Shown one piece after another: positions 48,399 through 60,780 of a DNA stretch of 64,000 nt. A model generated the notes under the pieces. That model did no database searches. It was not told the origin of the DNA and was given only the letters and a program-made list of their open reading frames with translations. The position numbers and the translations under genes were made by a program. This stretch comes from Cloeon dipterum (taxonomy: Eukaryota > Arthropoda > Insecta > Ephemeroptera > Baetidae). Positions within the stretch are counted from its first letter, which is position 1; each line of letters opens with the position of its first letter. The DNA is taken from positions 20,391,883 to 20,455,882 of the forward strand of contig NC_088789.1 in NCBI RefSeq assembly GCF_949628265.1. Direction: 5' to 3'.

Positions 48399-51300
48399 TC
48401 ATGTCAAATGAGTTAAAACCTGCATGAAGAACGGGAACTGCTCCGGTTTTGGAATGGATTCGAAATAGTCGACAATATCTTGGTGCCCCCTTTCCACGGC
48501 TATTTCGAGGGCAGTCATTTTCCGCGAATTTTTCTTGTTCATTGAAAAATTTTTCGTGCTAATCAGCAGCTTGACATTTTCCAATTTGCCGCCCCTGCAG
48601 GCGCAGTGCAGACCGTTTTCGCCGTCCCGGTCCTTAGCCCTCATGTCAGCTCCGCGCTTGATGAGGAGGGCGAGCACTTCCGGCGTCGAGTGCTGCGCCG
48701 TCAGGGTGAGCGGGGTTGACCTGTAAATGTCCCTGGCGTTCAGGTTGGCCCCGTGTCGCAGCAGGGCTCTCGCCGTTTCCAAGTGCCCTTTCGCGCAGGC
48801 CATGTGCAGCGGCGTCCTCCCGGCCAAGTTCTTCTCGTTCACCCTGCTTTTATCTTTTTTCAAAATGGATTTTGTGATGTTCAGCAGGCCAAAGTGGGCC
48901 GCGTAATGCAGCGCCGTGTTTTCTTCGGCATTTTTTGAGTGCAAATCGCTGCCTTTGTCTCTGAGCAGTTTGAAAATTTTGACTGATGACTTTTCCGGTG
49001 CCGTGAATGTTTTGACGCTTCCCTCATTGAATAAGTTACACATTTTGAGCTGGAGATTATCAATCTTTTGGCACGAATAGTGAAGAGGTGTTGAAGAACT
49101 CGCATCGCACGCGTTTACATCGGCTCCTTTGTCAATTAAAAACTTAACAATCTCCAGTTTTTCGTGTGCCACGGCTTGGTGCAGGAGCGTTCTCCCCTCA
49201 TGACCTTTGCTGTCCTTGATTTTTGGGTCGATTTCCAGGAGGCTCTGTAGCACGTCCAGCTTGCCGCCTGCAACGGCGTAATGTGCTGCGTTATTTCCAA
49301 TACTGTCCACGGCATTAATTTCGGCTCCTTTCCCAACTAAAAATGAGCAGAATTCCGCGCCTGACGAATACGCCGCCAGCATCAACGGCGTCTGGCCCTC
49401 GTCCGTCTTCAGGTTGACGAATTTCATCAAAACTTCTCTTTCTGTGCCTTGGGAAGGGTCAAAATCAAAATTGGAGATCAACTTTTCCAGCACGTACTGC
49501 AAGTGCTGCAAATTACCAAAAGCACAAGCCCTGTGGAACACGTTCCAGTCGTTCTGGTCCACGGCGTTGAGCCACTCGGCGCCCTTCTTTTCGGTTTTTT
49601 CGACCAGGAAGCGGAACACCGCGACGTCCTCGTTGTGCACAGCGTAGTGCAGCACGGTGGAACCGTCTTGCAAAACGTCCCACAGCAGCTCTTGATTTTC
49701 ACGGAGCAAAATTTCCACCGTCTCCAATCGGCCTGCGTAGGCGGCGTAGAAGAGGCAACTGCGTCCATGTGCGTCCCTGGCGTTTAACTCCGCGTAGTTG
49801 TCCAGCAGGTGCTGCGTGACCTCGGATTTGCAGCCCCGGGCGGCCACGAGCAGCGCCGTCAGCCCGTTTTCGTCCCTGATTTCCGTGTCGATGCCGCTTT
49901 CCAGCAGCTGCAGCATAACCTCCACGTGGTTGTTCGTCACCGACTGGATCAGCGCTTGGATGGTTTTGCTTCTTTTCAGAATCACCTCCACTTCGTCGCA
50001 TTGCTGCTTGAGCTCCCTGTAAGCGTTGGTCAGGTTGTAAGACGCGATTTTCTCCGTCAGCCGGCAGATTGTTTCAGGTCGGAGTGCTCGATCCAAATGT
50101 TTCAAAACGCCGGTTTTCAAGATCTTGATCGCGATTTCCTCGCTTGACTCGCACGCGGTTTCCAGCAACTGGTAAATGTCGGATTCGAATTCTTTCGGCG
50201 GTGGACAGTTTCGGAACGGTATTATCACGCTTAAGGCAATCTTGAAAATGTGCACCAGACCTTCTTTCGCAGCAGTCTCCAAAATCGTTTTCACATTTTC
50301 TTTATTGCTTTTGAGGTAAAACACGAAGCTGTCCGAGTCTTCGTCGTGATCCTTGCTGCTTGTTTGAGAGAATAAGCTGTTGATGAAAACCCTGCATTGT
50401 TTCAAAAGCTCCGATTCAAACATTGGTATAATGGAGGCCTGCTTGATTTTTAAATCGTACAAGTAGGAGTCCGCTACTAAAAATTCAGCCACGGACTTGT
50501 GGAAACACTCCACATTTTCAGGGCCACTGATTGAAGCAATTCCTGTGCTGTTAATTACCGCGATTTTTTCCTCTGTGAATGAAAAAGTCGGCTCTTGGAG
50601 CAAAAGCTGTCGCGCCAGTTTGTGAGCAAGCGCCATTCCGATTTTAATGGAAGACAGGCATTTGCTATTGCCTTTGTCCTTGTTTTTCACTGCGTCGTGC
50701 AGCTTTTCGTCGACTATTACTCTGTAAACCTCGAAAAAGTCGATATCGTCCGCACATTCGACAAAATTCGAGATCAAAATCAGGTGTAGGGGATTTTGCA
50801 ACACATCAGAAAATCCAGACTTGTGGAATTTTTCGATGAGGAGCCGACATTTCCTTTCGCCCTTGGTGGAAATCTGCATCAGCAAACGAAGCTGCTTTTT
50901 GCTATCAAAAGGTAAAATTTTTACTTGAAATGATGGATTGGCGCTGATTGCACTCAAAACCGTCAGCAATTCATGCGGCCTGGTTGCAACCACCAACGGT
51001 ACTTGCATATCGGTCATGCTTTTGATCAGCATCAAACCCTTTTCTCTCAACTCGGGACAAATATCATCGAATCCATCCAGGAAAATTATGGGTTTTTCAT
51101 CCGGAAGGAGATGTTCGACACTCGTCAATATTGATTCAATTTTGACGGTCTCAGCAGTGGCCGACTTGATATATTGGTAATGATGGACTAAATTCACCAC
51201 GAACACTTTCTTCTGCTTGAAAGCGGCGTAACTTTCCAACTTTTTAAGTGTCAGCGTTTTCCCCGATCCCGGAGGCGAGGAAATGATCCAGACGCAGTAC

Positions 51301-53402
51301 GGGCGTGACGGTTTTTGTCGCAAAAACTGTTCTTCAAACTCATCTCTCAGTTGGAAGAACGTGAGGTCAGCGGAAGCAGCGGAGATAAATTTTCGGTTTC
51401 CATCCGCTTGTAAATTCAATTTGTCTTTTGTCAGGTGGGCTATGAGAGTTACGTTAAACGTGGGCGGAATGAAAGCCGAGGGCCAGATGGGGAAGTCGAG
51501 CAGAAAAGGCAGCGTGCCCAGCACTTTGGAACTAATTCTGCCCGTTTGTTCACCTTCCTGGCGCAAAAGGCCCAGCAGCAGCTCCTCGAGGTTCGAAGAT
51601 CCGTCTCTCAGTGCAGGAAGGCTCAGCAATTTCTCCAGCTGATGCACAGCGTCTGTTTATAATTTTTTTTTTAATAATTTAAAGAGCAAACTGGTTTCGA
51701 CATTTACCTTTTCCATTCAAAATGCAGAATAAAATCTGGACGTGGACTGTGGATTTAAAACAATAAGCTGATTCGCACTGGAAAATATAAAAAAATTTCG
51801 TCAAAAATTATTTTATTTAATGAAAAATTTTCTTACCAGTTTGCTATCAGTGCACTCATTGTTAATCGCTTGATTGACAAAGAAAAATATCATTGGCCTC
51901 CTCGCCCAGCTCGACTCTCTCAGCGTTGCGAAGTAGTTGGCCACATCCCACAGGGACACGCGCTGGTTTTTCAATCTCATGCAAATGCGTTTTTCCCGAT
52001 CCACAAAAAGCGGGGCTAGGAAGCAGGCTAAGAAACAGCCAACCGCGGCCTTCTCGTTGTGCACTAAAGAGAATTTATTAATTATATCTTACTCATTGTG
52101 TATCTTTTCCCAATTGTACCTTTATTTGTCATGCAGTCGGTCAATCTTGTGATTTTTCGCGTTTCAAAGGCCAAATCTTCTTGAAGCACTCTTTCGATCT
52201 TATTCACCGCAACTTGCTCCTCTCCGTAAACCAAAGCGACCTTGTTTCTCAAGGGTTCGCCTTTCGCGCTGGTCCAGGTGTAGAATAAATTCTCCTTTCT
52301 TAAAAGGCTGCTGGTTGCTCCCTCGTACACTCTCCTAATGACAATCGGCGACCTTTCCAAATAAAAAGAAACAGAGGTAAAATATATAATACTAAAGTAA
52401 AAACGCACTTGTAAAAAGTTAGGGGTTCGTGCGAAGTGTAAACAACTTCTGGCGACTGCTCCATTCGGCTTTGCAATGCTGTGAGTAAGTCGAGAAGGGA
52501 AAAATTCTCCGCTAATTCATTGAGCAGTTTGCAAAATGTTTGAACCAAGTTGGTGCACTGATTTAGATGATCCTCATCTTTTTCTAGGATCAAATTTAAT
52601 TTTTAATTTCAATTTTTAATTCAGATCTATAGGCGCTCACTTTCTTCAGTGGAAAATATAACGATGAGGTTTTTCACCCTGGGAAAATTCGAGTAGGCAG
52701 TGCCGTGGTCAACCAGCTGCGTTGGATACAGATGAGCTGTGGCAAACAGGCCGTGCTTGGAAAAGCTTATCTGAGCTTTAACCTCCTTTGGGTGGACCTA
52801 ACAATGAAAAAGGCATGAATTATACTCACAGATATTTCTTTAAACGCATGTGTGTACCACAAAGAAGATGATTTTTAGAACTCCTCCCCACCCTTGCAGT
52901 TTTTTCAGCGACTGTGTCACATCTCGCGTTGCAAAGGTTTCGTACTGCTGACTATTGCCTCCTTTGTGGTCGGTGAAAAGCAATCCTTCGCCGTTTCCAT
53001 AGGACAGAAAGAAGAGAATAAAAACAGACGGCGGTCCTGCGAAAATCGTGAGAAATAAATTATAAATCAATCGAAACAATATTTATTTTATTATATTACC
53101 TGATATTTCAAAAAAATGGGACAGCTTTTTCTCATCCGACAAAAATCCCATGAGGTAACTCTTGTAGGGCGACTCCAAAAGTCTGTAACCGCATCGGCGG
53201 TCAACGAATGTTTTTTCCAAGACATCCAGATCACTCTTGCATTCGCGTCGAATGAGTTTTGGATCATTTTTAAATGCAAAGTTGACAGCCAAGACGCACA
53301 CGCTGAAACCTCAAATCAGTTTTTGCACATTCAAACAAAACAAAATGTGAACCTGTCTGCGTTGCGGTTTTCCTCGAAATACCCCAACTGCGAGTGAAGC
53401 AT
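48399..53402 (-). CDS. NLR-like protein: tandem pseudo-caspase, NACHT, ankyrin repeats
   Basis: Nine exons join to 4548 nt (1515 residues): 53353-53402, 53100-53302, 52858-53036, 52641-52797, 52409-52583, 52120-52352, 51837-52063, 51708-51777, 48399-51652. Residues about 15-290 read like a whole caspase unit: VCVLAVNFAF, DVLEKTF, FILFFLSYGNGEG (His site), KIIFFV (Cys site), then a p10-like part (QTFCKLLNELAENFSLLDLLT, SSLLRKENLFY). Residues about 300-430 look like a second p20 (KVALVYGEEQ, VSLWDVANYFATL, RRPMIFFFVNQAIN). Both lack catalytic His and Cys. A NACHT NTPase follows: Walker A PPGSGKT ending at residue 564, Walker B FLDGFDD at 622-628. About twelve ankyrin repeats fill residues 1000-1490 (RTPLHMACAKGHLETARALL). 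The layout suggests a cytosolic sensor or scaffold. Caspase assignment is by pattern only; NACHT and ankyrin are firm. Confidence 0.85.
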
Positions 53403-56390: not shown

Positions 56391-58383
56391 TCAATCAGGG
56401 AGTTGCTTGAGGTTCTCTTCCAGGATCGTCTCGAGTTCCTGATCAAATCGACTGGTCGGACGCAGCGTCCTGAAGGTGCGCTGTGACAGGCGCCACACTA
56501 GACGTTGTTTGTTGTGAGGACTCTTCGGCCGCTCCTCATACTGCTTCAGACTGGCCGATACTACTTCGTAGCAATACCAAAAACTATTTTCGTTTATCTG
56601 AAAATAGAAGTCATACAGAATTAAAATTGAGTCAAATCTGGAATATTTAAAACACAATTATGTAGGTTAGGAGTTGAAAGGGTCTGACTAGAGATCTTGA
56701 GATCACACATTTTTTTTCAATACAGGTCATAGGATCTGTTCCATTTAAACAAATTTCATAACGATTTCACAGGGGCTTGTTGTGATTTATATTCAATGAT
56801 TTAAGCAATTTACAGAGCTTTGAAAAAAGTGGTAAATGCTTCAAAATTACGACTGTTGTTTAACTAAATAGATTTTATTTTTCGAGCATTTAAGGAGACA
56901 AATTTATCAGTTCCAAAGAAATCAAAAAATGTTCTCCCATGGTTTATTTTGGGCTTTGAAACTTTCATAATAAAATAAATTAGGAGCGAGTAAATTTAAA
57001 TCTATGATTTCTCAAAATCGACTGAATATCCGAAGTTTAATTTCTTGTGTTTCCAAAATCGCTAGCAGTTTTTTAACCTCTTTGAACAAAATTAAGATTA
57101 ATTTTTTTTTTAATTTTTGCTTAGAAATTTTAGAATTTTGATTAGCTAAAAAACAATTAAATAATAAGGACCTGTCTAAAATCTAAAATTAGGAAATTCT
57201 CATTTATAGAAAAAATAACACATTAATCGATTTTTCTTGTCACCTGAAGGCTTCTTGCACAATTGTACAAAAAGCATGCTTTTAAATTCGATTTCAAAAG
57301 AATTATCACACGAGCCTCTACATTTTTTTTCTCATTTCGGATTAAATTTTGCAATTAAATTCAAAATGTTACAATGTGTAGCTACTTTACTGAGACGCCT
57401 ATTGGTTTGATTTGCAAAATCTGCAAACTGTTGGCAGCTTTCAAAAAATTATGCAATTTTACCCAGGGTGCTCAGGAAACGCCCTGATGTGCTCACAATC
57501 TCGTTCCTAAACACCCTTAAGACACACAGAGGGCACAATTGAGGTAATATATATGCTGTTACAAAATTGCAGGCTAATTCAAATCCCGTGGAATCACCCA
57601 AAAAATAACAAACTCCCAACCTTCACAATTTTTGCTTTAAACCATGAAAATTTATAATAAGAAATTTAACGCGTAATACCTTGCAGACATCGTAGATTTC
57701 CCCAATTGGCTTGGCCAGGGAATCCCTCACTTTCTCAGGACAGCCATCGATGTACAGAAACAAGAGCACCAGCGCCAGCTCACAGGGCCTGAAGTTGGAG
57801 CACGCAGAGTCGGCGGCCAGCACCTCGAGTCCGGACGAATCCGGCCCGGTCAGACCCAGGATGGAGCGGAACGCGTTCAAGAAGTCGAGCGCCGTGGCCG
57901 CGATGGTCGAGCCGAGCTTGAGCTGCATCAGACCGGACATCCTGGCCAGGTCGGCCGCCGTGCAGCCGCACTGCGACACGATGGCCAGCCGGGACAGCTC
58001 TGGACAGCCGCTGCTTGGACGAAGGGACTCGGCGGCCAGGTGGAGGGCGGCCACGCCGATGACGGCCAGGTGACGTCGCAGGGCACGCATTTTAGTCAGA
58101 AAGCGGTCCATGCTCAGGGTGGCGAGCAGCAGCACCTCGGCGGGCAGATCAAAGCACACCTTCAGGCACCGCAGCACCTGCACCGTCTCGTCTCTCATTC
58201 CGGACGTCACTTCGTTCTCATCCTGCACGAAATTGGTGATAAAAAATTATTTTAGTTTTTCCTTGAAGAAATTTCACTCACTCTTGCAAGCGACGGCAGC
58301 TGCAGCAAGGGCTGGAATTGCGGCTCCTGCGAAATGAGCGTTTCCAGCCTCAGCCACGCTTCCTCTTCGTTGTTGAGCACCAT
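56391..58383 (-). CDS. CycG: Cyclin G
   Basis: Exons 58282-58383, 57680-58222 and 56391-56597 join to 852 nt, 283 residues. The start ATG follows directly after an acceptor, so the 5' untranslated region is spliced (upstream donor near 58604). The cyclin box fills exon 2: GMRDETVQVLRCLKVCFDL, LLATLSMDRFLTKM, HLAVIGVAALHLAAES and ELALVLLFLYIDG. The C-terminus has LVWRLSQRTFRTLRPT, typical of G-type cyclins. Family members take part in growth, DNA-damage and cell-cycle control and bind PP2A subunits. Intron 2 (56598-57679) is AT-rich with nothing recognised. Confidence 0.9.
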
Positions 58384-59236: not shown

Positions 59237-60780
59237 ATGATTATAAAAATAGCAATGGAAGCAGCAGCAGTCAAAGAAAATTTGAAACAAATATTTTTGC
59301 ACGCTGTCCAGGCTGTAAAACCGCAAAACCTAATTCTTCAAAATTTAGTCAGGCGTGAGGACGTTTTGGTTGTAAATGAAAGGAAATATTCTTTGAAGAG
59401 AAATGTTTTTATGGTGGGTAAGGGTCTAAATTATTTTTCAGTTCTGAAATTTCTGAAATAATTTTAAAGGTTTTGGCAAAGCCGTCCTGGGGATGGCCGC
59501 AGCTGCTGCACCCCTACTTGATAGTCATCTTCAGGGTGGCATCCTGAGCGTTCCGGTTGGAAGTGATTCGAATTTAATTCGGCAGTTGAAAAAAGCAAAT
59601 TTAGAAGTCCTCGAAGGCGCCAAAAATAATCTTCCTGACAACGATGCCCTTCTTGCCGCGAAGAAAATTAAAGACCTGGCCGTCAGTTTGCACCCTGAGG
59701 ATATATTAATCATCCTGATTTCAGGTTTACAAAAATATTAATAATATAAACAATAATAAAAACAAAGTTAAAAGGTGGAGGATCTGCTCTTCTGCCTTTG
59801 CCGAAAGAGGGCTTGACACTGGAAGACAAACTCGACGCCATCAAAAAGCTCACCAGAGCTGGTGCTACCATAAATGAGCTCAACCACGTGCGGATTGCCC
59901 TGTCCGACTTGAAGGGCGGCCAACTTGCGACCCTCTCAGGCACCAAGCAAGTTGTCACCCTTATTTTGTCGGACATCATAGGAGACCCTGTCCACCTCAT
60001 TGCAAGTGGCCCCACGGTTCAGCCTCTACCTGTCAACACGTGTGACATAATTGAAAAATACGACCTTACTGATAAACTTTCGACCAAAATCCTTCAATAC
60101 TTGATGGACAATATCAAGTGCCAATCACTTGACACCAGTCATGTAAGCAGTTTTTGAAGAACAAAGATATTTTCTAAACGATTATTTTTTTTGTTTAATT
60201 TCAGGTTCAAAATTTGGTTATTGGGAATAATACAAAAGCTCTTGAGGCAGCTGCAGAAAAGGCTAAGGAGCTGGGATATTTCCCTTGCATTCTTTCCAAC
60301 AGTGTTTCTGGAGAAGTGGTAGACGTTTCCAATTTTTACGGCACCCTGGCCCGAGTGTGGCGCAAAAAGGATCAATTGAACGAGCTAATTTCACAATCAA
60401 AATTTCCCATTACAAAGCCACCAGCAGCTGTCTGTGATATGCAATCAATTATTTTCATTTGCGGTGGTGAGCCAACGGTTGCATTGAAAGGGCAGGGCCA
60501 AGGAGGCAGAAATCAGGAACTTGCCCTGAGGGTGGCGAAGACCCTGCCCGAAGGATGCACGTTCCTTAGTGCTGGCACTGATGGAATAGACGGACCAACT
60601 CCGGCTGCGGGCGCAGTTTGTGACAGATCAAATTTGAGATCCGATTTAGACAAATTTCTAGCCAACAATGACTCGTATTCTTATTTGAGGGAAAGTGATG
60701 GGGATTTGATCCAAACTGGGCACACTGGCACTAATGTTATGGATATTCATTTGCTACATGTCTGTAAATTGGGTAAATAG
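59237..60780 (+). CDS. GLYCTK: Glycerate kinase (MOFRL family)
   Basis: Exons 59237-59417, 59470-59724, 59775-60142 and 60205-60780 join to 1380 nt, 459 residues. Introns are 50-62 bp. Motifs in order: GFGKAVLGMAAAAAPLL, GGILSVPVGS, ISGGGSALLPLP (phosphate-binding loop), LNHVRIALSDLKGGQLA, DIIGDPVHLIASGPT, then the MOFRL part GGEPTVALKGQGQGGRNQEL and SAGTDGIDGPTPAAGA. The enzyme phosphorylates D-glycerate to 2-phosphoglycerate in serine and fructose breakdown. Human GLYCTK is 523 residues; the difference is at the N-terminus, which here has no clear targeting signal. A second Met seven codons in (59255) is another possible start. Confidence 0.95.

Follow-up and report, generated by a model that had tools for sequence, protein, structure and literature searches.

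A caspase-pseudocaspase pair fused to a NACHT-ankyrin protein in a mayfly family of candidate NLR-like receptors

Fungal NLRs carry CHAT caspase-like protease domains (PMC12881547), and a figure legend on the sponge Dysidea avara gives NLRX proteins with a caspase (CASc) domain (PMC12909245). In phage WO, NACHT is followed by ankyrin repeats, and arthropods have NACHT homologues (PMC5062602). The NACHT combinations that excerpts of two papers give for cnidarians and a ctenophore (PMC8260672, PMC11797021) include none with a caspase domain. The pseudocaspase c-FLIP(L) pairs with caspase-8, which thereby becomes active (PMC7586951); what is said here of all these papers rests on excerpts of each. 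We analysed a gene of the mayfly Cloeon dipterum that encodes two caspase-type domains, a NACHT NTPase and ankyrin repeats in a single chain. It lies at positions 48399..53402, minus strand, of the window, the 64,000-nucleotide stretch of DNA under study, and is referred to below as the window gene.

A gene family with one shared architecture

The nine minus-strand exons of the window gene (53402-53353, 53302-53100, 53036-52858, 52797-52641, 52583-52409, 52352-52120, 52063-51837, 51777-51708 and 51652-48399) join into 1515 codons without a stop, and all eight introns have GT-AG ends, which bears out the coordinates, strand, exon number and domain order proposed in the initial annotation. The same architecture recurs in C. 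dipterum. The 190-Mb, 10-contig genome contains at least 101 NACHT places, a lower bound because the NACHT profile PF05729 fails on the window gene (14.6 bits), whose own locus is not among them; one such place does not always equal one gene. In the best 40 of the 101 by NACHT score (L013-L052), a caspase-pair profile placed the module upstream of NACHT in 39, with 38 loci covering at least 466 of the 490 profile positions and one (L046) covering 423, its active-site exon missing. The matches split into 6 to 9 segments, a number that varies because some loci have a split exon or a short intron that the frame reads through, and the usual breaks, near profile positions 85, 144, 191, 259, 344, 419 and 445, match those of the window gene. 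Architecture and gene structure are kept in the sampled loci. Genome-wide, 19 of 49 Peptidase_C14 matches lie 1.1-3.0 kb upstream of a same-strand NACHT place, compared with about 0.1% per match expected under an even spread. A lone oddity could be ruled out: the window gene is one member of a large family.

Most of the NACHT places (78/101) have another within 200 kb, mainly on C2 (0.8-4.7 Mb) and C4 (29-36 Mb). L035 and L044 (C4:35.81 and 35.77 Mb) are 99.3% identical over 3734 bases, which marks them, on sequence, as a recent duplication. Outside these clusters lies the window gene, a singleton at C4 20.44 Mb. The fortieth sampled locus, L013 (G000:C1:9154145-9160621), is a NACHT gene that lacks the caspase module; it has at least two open stretches and an HPAFSEYLAA motif, and probably belongs to another NACHT family. 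Clusters of stronger Peptidase_C14 matches with no NACHT, at G000:C5:27.147-27.160 Mb and C4:1.033-1.039 Mb, are probably ordinary caspases.

Three protein searches returned 9 matches (4 from C. dipterum, 3 from the mayfly Neocloeon triangulifer, 2 other), 21 matches (4, 5 and 12 ankyrin proteins from elsewhere) and 69 matches (56 from C. dipterum including partial models, 8 from N. triangulifer and 5 distant). The names shown for relatives are "uncharacterized protein", "hypothetical predicted protein" or a domain name. No full relatives were found outside these two species in word-based searches that scored about 8000 candidates each and that, relying on shared exact words, could miss relatives beyond these mayflies; the term insect family used initially thus holds in the narrow sense of two mayflies. 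An alignment (A2) combined the window gene with 49 relatives picked by coverage, giving 50 rows. Left out before counting were P0001, P0008-P0011, P0013, P0017, P0032, P0037-P0040, P0061, P0062, P0065, P0067, P0070-P0072, P0074, P0078, P0081 and P0084-P0086, many of the family proteins left out being partial or multi-module models. A tree was built from 40 members, 27 of C. dipterum and 13 of N. triangulifer. It joins the window gene to P0002, P0003, P0010, P0012 and P0014 of N. triangulifer (support 99/97) and separates it from the remaining 26 C. dipterum members; at 1.9 changes per site, its branch is so long that this position is uncertain. Among C. dipterum proteins, the caspase module begins only at residue 214-228 in P0004, P0047, P0048, P0051, P0052, P0053 and P0055, and P0011 (2585 amino acids) has three caspase modules in series (23-525, 856-1366, 1715-2204) and may result from tandem genes that the annotation fused.

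The only protein returned for the window gene's locus is C. dipterum P0001, whose start falls inside exon 7 and to which the window gene is 96.9% identical across 521 amino acids. Neighbouring coding stretches carry a cyclin N-terminal domain (57623-58246, minus strand) and MOFRL (60199-60780, plus strand), and a tRNA scan found none.

Domains of the window gene and its relatives

The first caspase domain (residues 1-255; 52409..53402, minus strand, as are all features that follow) is a complete unit, p20 then p10, as had been claimed, although the similarity is weak in the window gene alone. Peptidase_C14 scores 17.1 bits against these residues, under its 21.4 cut-off, and residues 1-489 returned no caspase from PDB, the single match being unrelated (E 0.38). 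Family profiles built without the window gene's row, from an alignment that had been made with it, match the gene at E 7.7e-50 for domain 1 and 1.9e-41 for domain 2. When its first 500 residues were shuffled 1000 times, no shuffle was reported at E <= 10, which rules out chance motifs as the source of the likeness. A check against Peptidase_C14 and NACHT profiles, suggested at the outset, gave matches to both, each below its cut-off.

In domain 1 the catalytic dyad is kept in most examined members. The histidine is present in 49/49 aligned relatives and 38/39 paralogous loci, the cysteine in 47/49 and 38/39. The window gene has neither: SYG replaces SHG at residues 96-98 (52996..53004), exchanging the catalytic His for Tyr, and at the start of exon 4 (52780..52797) VHPKEV replaces PCRGEL, so that the active-site CRG is missing downstream of KIIFF. 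The initially noted FLSYGNGEG is thus the LSHG motif with Tyr at the place of the catalytic His. An alternative in-frame donor for intron 3 was considered and rejected; it would add VHTC, which by eye is out of line with CRG and does not restore the cysteine. Because of the His to Tyr exchange and the missing CRG, domain 1 of the window gene is predicted to be catalytically dead. The p20 arginine, which by position in the caspase-3 alignment we take to belong to the P1-Asp pocket, is present in the window gene and 46/49 relatives. Two other proteins, P0055 (C. dipterum) and P0002 (N. triangulifer), keep the histidine and lose the cysteine (Ser in P0055, none in P0002). L046 (G000:C4:8631444-8637830) is a second degenerate family locus, with SYG for SHG; its active-site exon is not recognisable, its matches are weaker and its exons stand further apart.

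Domain 2 (about residues 278-486, exons 6-9; 51489..52285) has a caspase fold that lacks the dyad in all aligned members: its loop lacks His in 50/50 rows, and Cys is absent from the aligned position in 49/49 relatives. It had been described as a caspase-like p20; the fold stands, but a lone p20 is ruled out: the unit (exons 6-9) also has a p10 part, most of which is covered when the domain 2 model is aligned. With neither domain of the window gene retaining His and Cys in the aligned rows, the label of a death-effector part is not supported for this gene. The fold search that had been recommended, run on relatives P0050 and P0005, found caspase topology in both units; the fold class of each part is accordingly established on models of relatives. 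P0008 and P0009 are NACHT-ankyrin proteins in which the last part of domain 2 lies close to the start (LEYLLDFPDFARHFV); they are probably partial family members.

The NACHT NTPase (50847..51344, limits approximate) is real though divergent, with Walker A SSPPGSGKT (51281-51255), Walker B IIFLDGFDD (51089-51063) and ATRPHE (50990-50970). The window gene scores 22.5 bits against AAA (cut-off 21.2) and stays below the PF05729 cut-off of 26.7, which four relatives scanned with Pfam (P0003, P0002 with the best 25 of 26 families, P0005 and P0007) exceed at 27.6 to 42.4 bits. For the P0050 model, the best Foldseek matches by E-value are NLRC4 chains (2.9e-11; TM-score 0.25, root-mean-square deviation 9.5, 374 columns). 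The window gene keeps 13/15 near-invariant NACHT columns and 11/13 in the part that follows. It also keeps CFHKSVAEF (50481..50507; family form FxHxTFAEFL), a motif that we take to be of winged-helix type. The ankyrin array (48430..49960, limits approximate and by eye) is certain (PF12796, 1.7e-78), different Pfam models reporting 6 to 11 stretches; all NCBIfam matches to the window gene, NACHT and ankyrin-type, are below their cut-offs. Ankyrin repeats stand in place of leucine-rich repeats (LRRs), no family of which is among the 13 Pfam families listed for exon 9. CARD, PYD, Death and BIR gave no Pfam match at E <= 1 in residues 1-486 of the window gene and are absent among the families listed at that threshold for the four relatives; tandem death-effector domains are likewise not listed at E <= 1 in any of the five. 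These results support the initial contrast between caspase folds fused to NACHT-ankyrin in one chain and recruitment through CARD or PYD.

A proposed function and its alternatives

Caspases require pairing. That a pseudocaspase comes directly after the caspase within a single chain bearing a NACHT switch suggests, by analogy, built-in pairing of domains 1 and 2 together with clustering by NACHT. We propose, at a probability of roughly 0.55, a mayfly NLR-like receptor family of the order caspase, pseudocaspase, NACHT, winged helix and ankyrin, in which NACHT would drive clustering, pairing would activate domain 1 and the window gene would be a non-proteolytic member. The ankyrin array would sense or guard something, nucleotide-driven NACHT assembly would gather the chains, and domain 1 would become an active caspase through the built-in pseudocaspase and/or domain 1 of a neighbouring chain, in analogy to caspase-8 and c-FLIP(L). 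One polypeptide would then combine the receptor, adaptor and protease parts of an inflammasome-like machine. The window gene itself most likely acts non-proteolytically, either as bait or as a regulatory subunit in assemblies with active paralogues; such roles are favoured because neither domain appears catalytic, and the intact frame argues against simple decay.

Several points weigh against this proposal. The 40 loci were chosen by score and are not a random sample. The p10 arginine of the pocket is kept in only 31/49 relatives (Thr in 15) and is His in the window gene, so the specificity of the family may differ from that of ordinary caspases. An hhalign comparison of domain 1 with domain 2 found nothing (probability 0.7); of the 30 column-shuffled controls, at least 2 outscored it (25.8 and 3.5). 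Finally, we infer an immune role for the family from its architecture and clustering only.

This layout of switch and protease might instead serve a non-defence role, for example in allorecognition or in controlling cell death during development; the excerpt of PMC12881547 treats fungal NLRs that have caspase-like domains under gasdermins in allorecognition. The data hold no link between the family and infection, which also fits such a role. We nevertheless consider it unlikely, as large clustered expansions with recent duplicates, here the near-identical L035/L044, are more typical of receptors facing changing targets. A little less likely again is an integrated decoy, in which the caspase-type domains of the window gene would bait pathogen caspase blockers and tampering would trip NACHT with no need for protease activity. 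Retention of the fold with loss of catalytic residues in the window gene, and partly in L046, P0002 and P0055, would fit this idea, as would bacterial effectors that bind caspases (titles of PDB entries 3v3k and 7wzs), but the dyad kept in nearly all examined relatives would be superfluous in a pure decoy. We rate lower still a decaying pseudogene whose frame is open by chance: the lost catalytic residues, long branch, singleton position and similarly degenerate L046 are what decay would produce, yet the 1515 codons are intact, the eight introns have GT-AG ends, most NACHT and winged-helix columns are retained and the match to P0001 is close. It is very improbable that caspase-like exons 1-8 were wrongly joined to an adjacent NACHT-ankyrin gene in exon 9, as the start of P0001 could hint, because the module precedes NACHT with matching introns in 39/40 loci and 19/49 Peptidase_C14 matches genome-wide lie close upstream of NACHT, because the p10 part of domain 2 straddles exons 8 and 9, and because predicted proteins of both mayfly species cross these joints.

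Extending the proposed receptor family, we tentatively picture, at somewhat less than even odds, a single-chain inflammasome in Cloeon-Neocloeon mayflies, with about 100 mostly clustered receptors that would each carry their own caspase and c-FLIP-like activator, some of which, such as the window gene, would now be dominant regulators or decoys. As the adaptor step is removed, a single protein could serve for studying how sensing leads to caspase activation, and natural members with a dead domain 1 (the window gene, P0002 and P0055) would be ready-made comparisons.

Comparison with known systems

Phage WO and arthropod NACHT-ankyrin proteins share the NACHT-ankyrin order with the mayfly family, and the excerpt on them mentions no caspase domains. 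In Dysidea avara NLRX, a caspase domain likewise lies within an animal NACHT protein; these proteins are of NACHT-LRR type, and the figure legend describes no tandem caspase and pseudocaspase. Fungal CHAT-NLRs also place an N-terminal protease on an NLR-type switch, and according to the excerpt their protease domains are fused to repeats such as ankyrin as well. CHAT is close in structure to separase there (PMC12881547), whereas the mayfly domains match metazoan caspases, and no CHAT match is listed at E <= 1 for the four Pfam-scanned relatives (for P0002, among the best 25 of 26). Excerpts of PMC4833078 and PMC13389597 have nothing on such receptors, and the mayfly family is undescribed in the literature searched (mainly open-access, no preprints).

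The caspase-8/c-FLIP(L) heterodimer (PDB 3h11, a chain of which is listed among the fold-search matches of the domain models) combines an active caspase with a pseudocaspase of the same fold, a pairing that is putative in the mayfly family. Here both are held in one chain without death-effector domains, and the window gene appears dead in both. With vertebrate NLR inflammasomes (NLRC4, NLRP3 and caspase-1), the family shares NACHT with a winged helix and a caspase as the likely output. Unlike in these, the caspase is part of the same chain instead of being brought in through CARD or PYD, ankyrin repeats take the place of LRRs, and the chain includes a second caspase domain, which is dead. With at least 101 NACHT places, and the caspase pair in 39/40 of those sampled, this would be a large NLR-like receptor expansion for an insect. 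As far as we found, protease-carrying NLR-like receptors are known elsewhere, and a caspase-pseudocaspase pair on a NACHT-ankyrin protein is apparently new, as is such an expansion in an insect.
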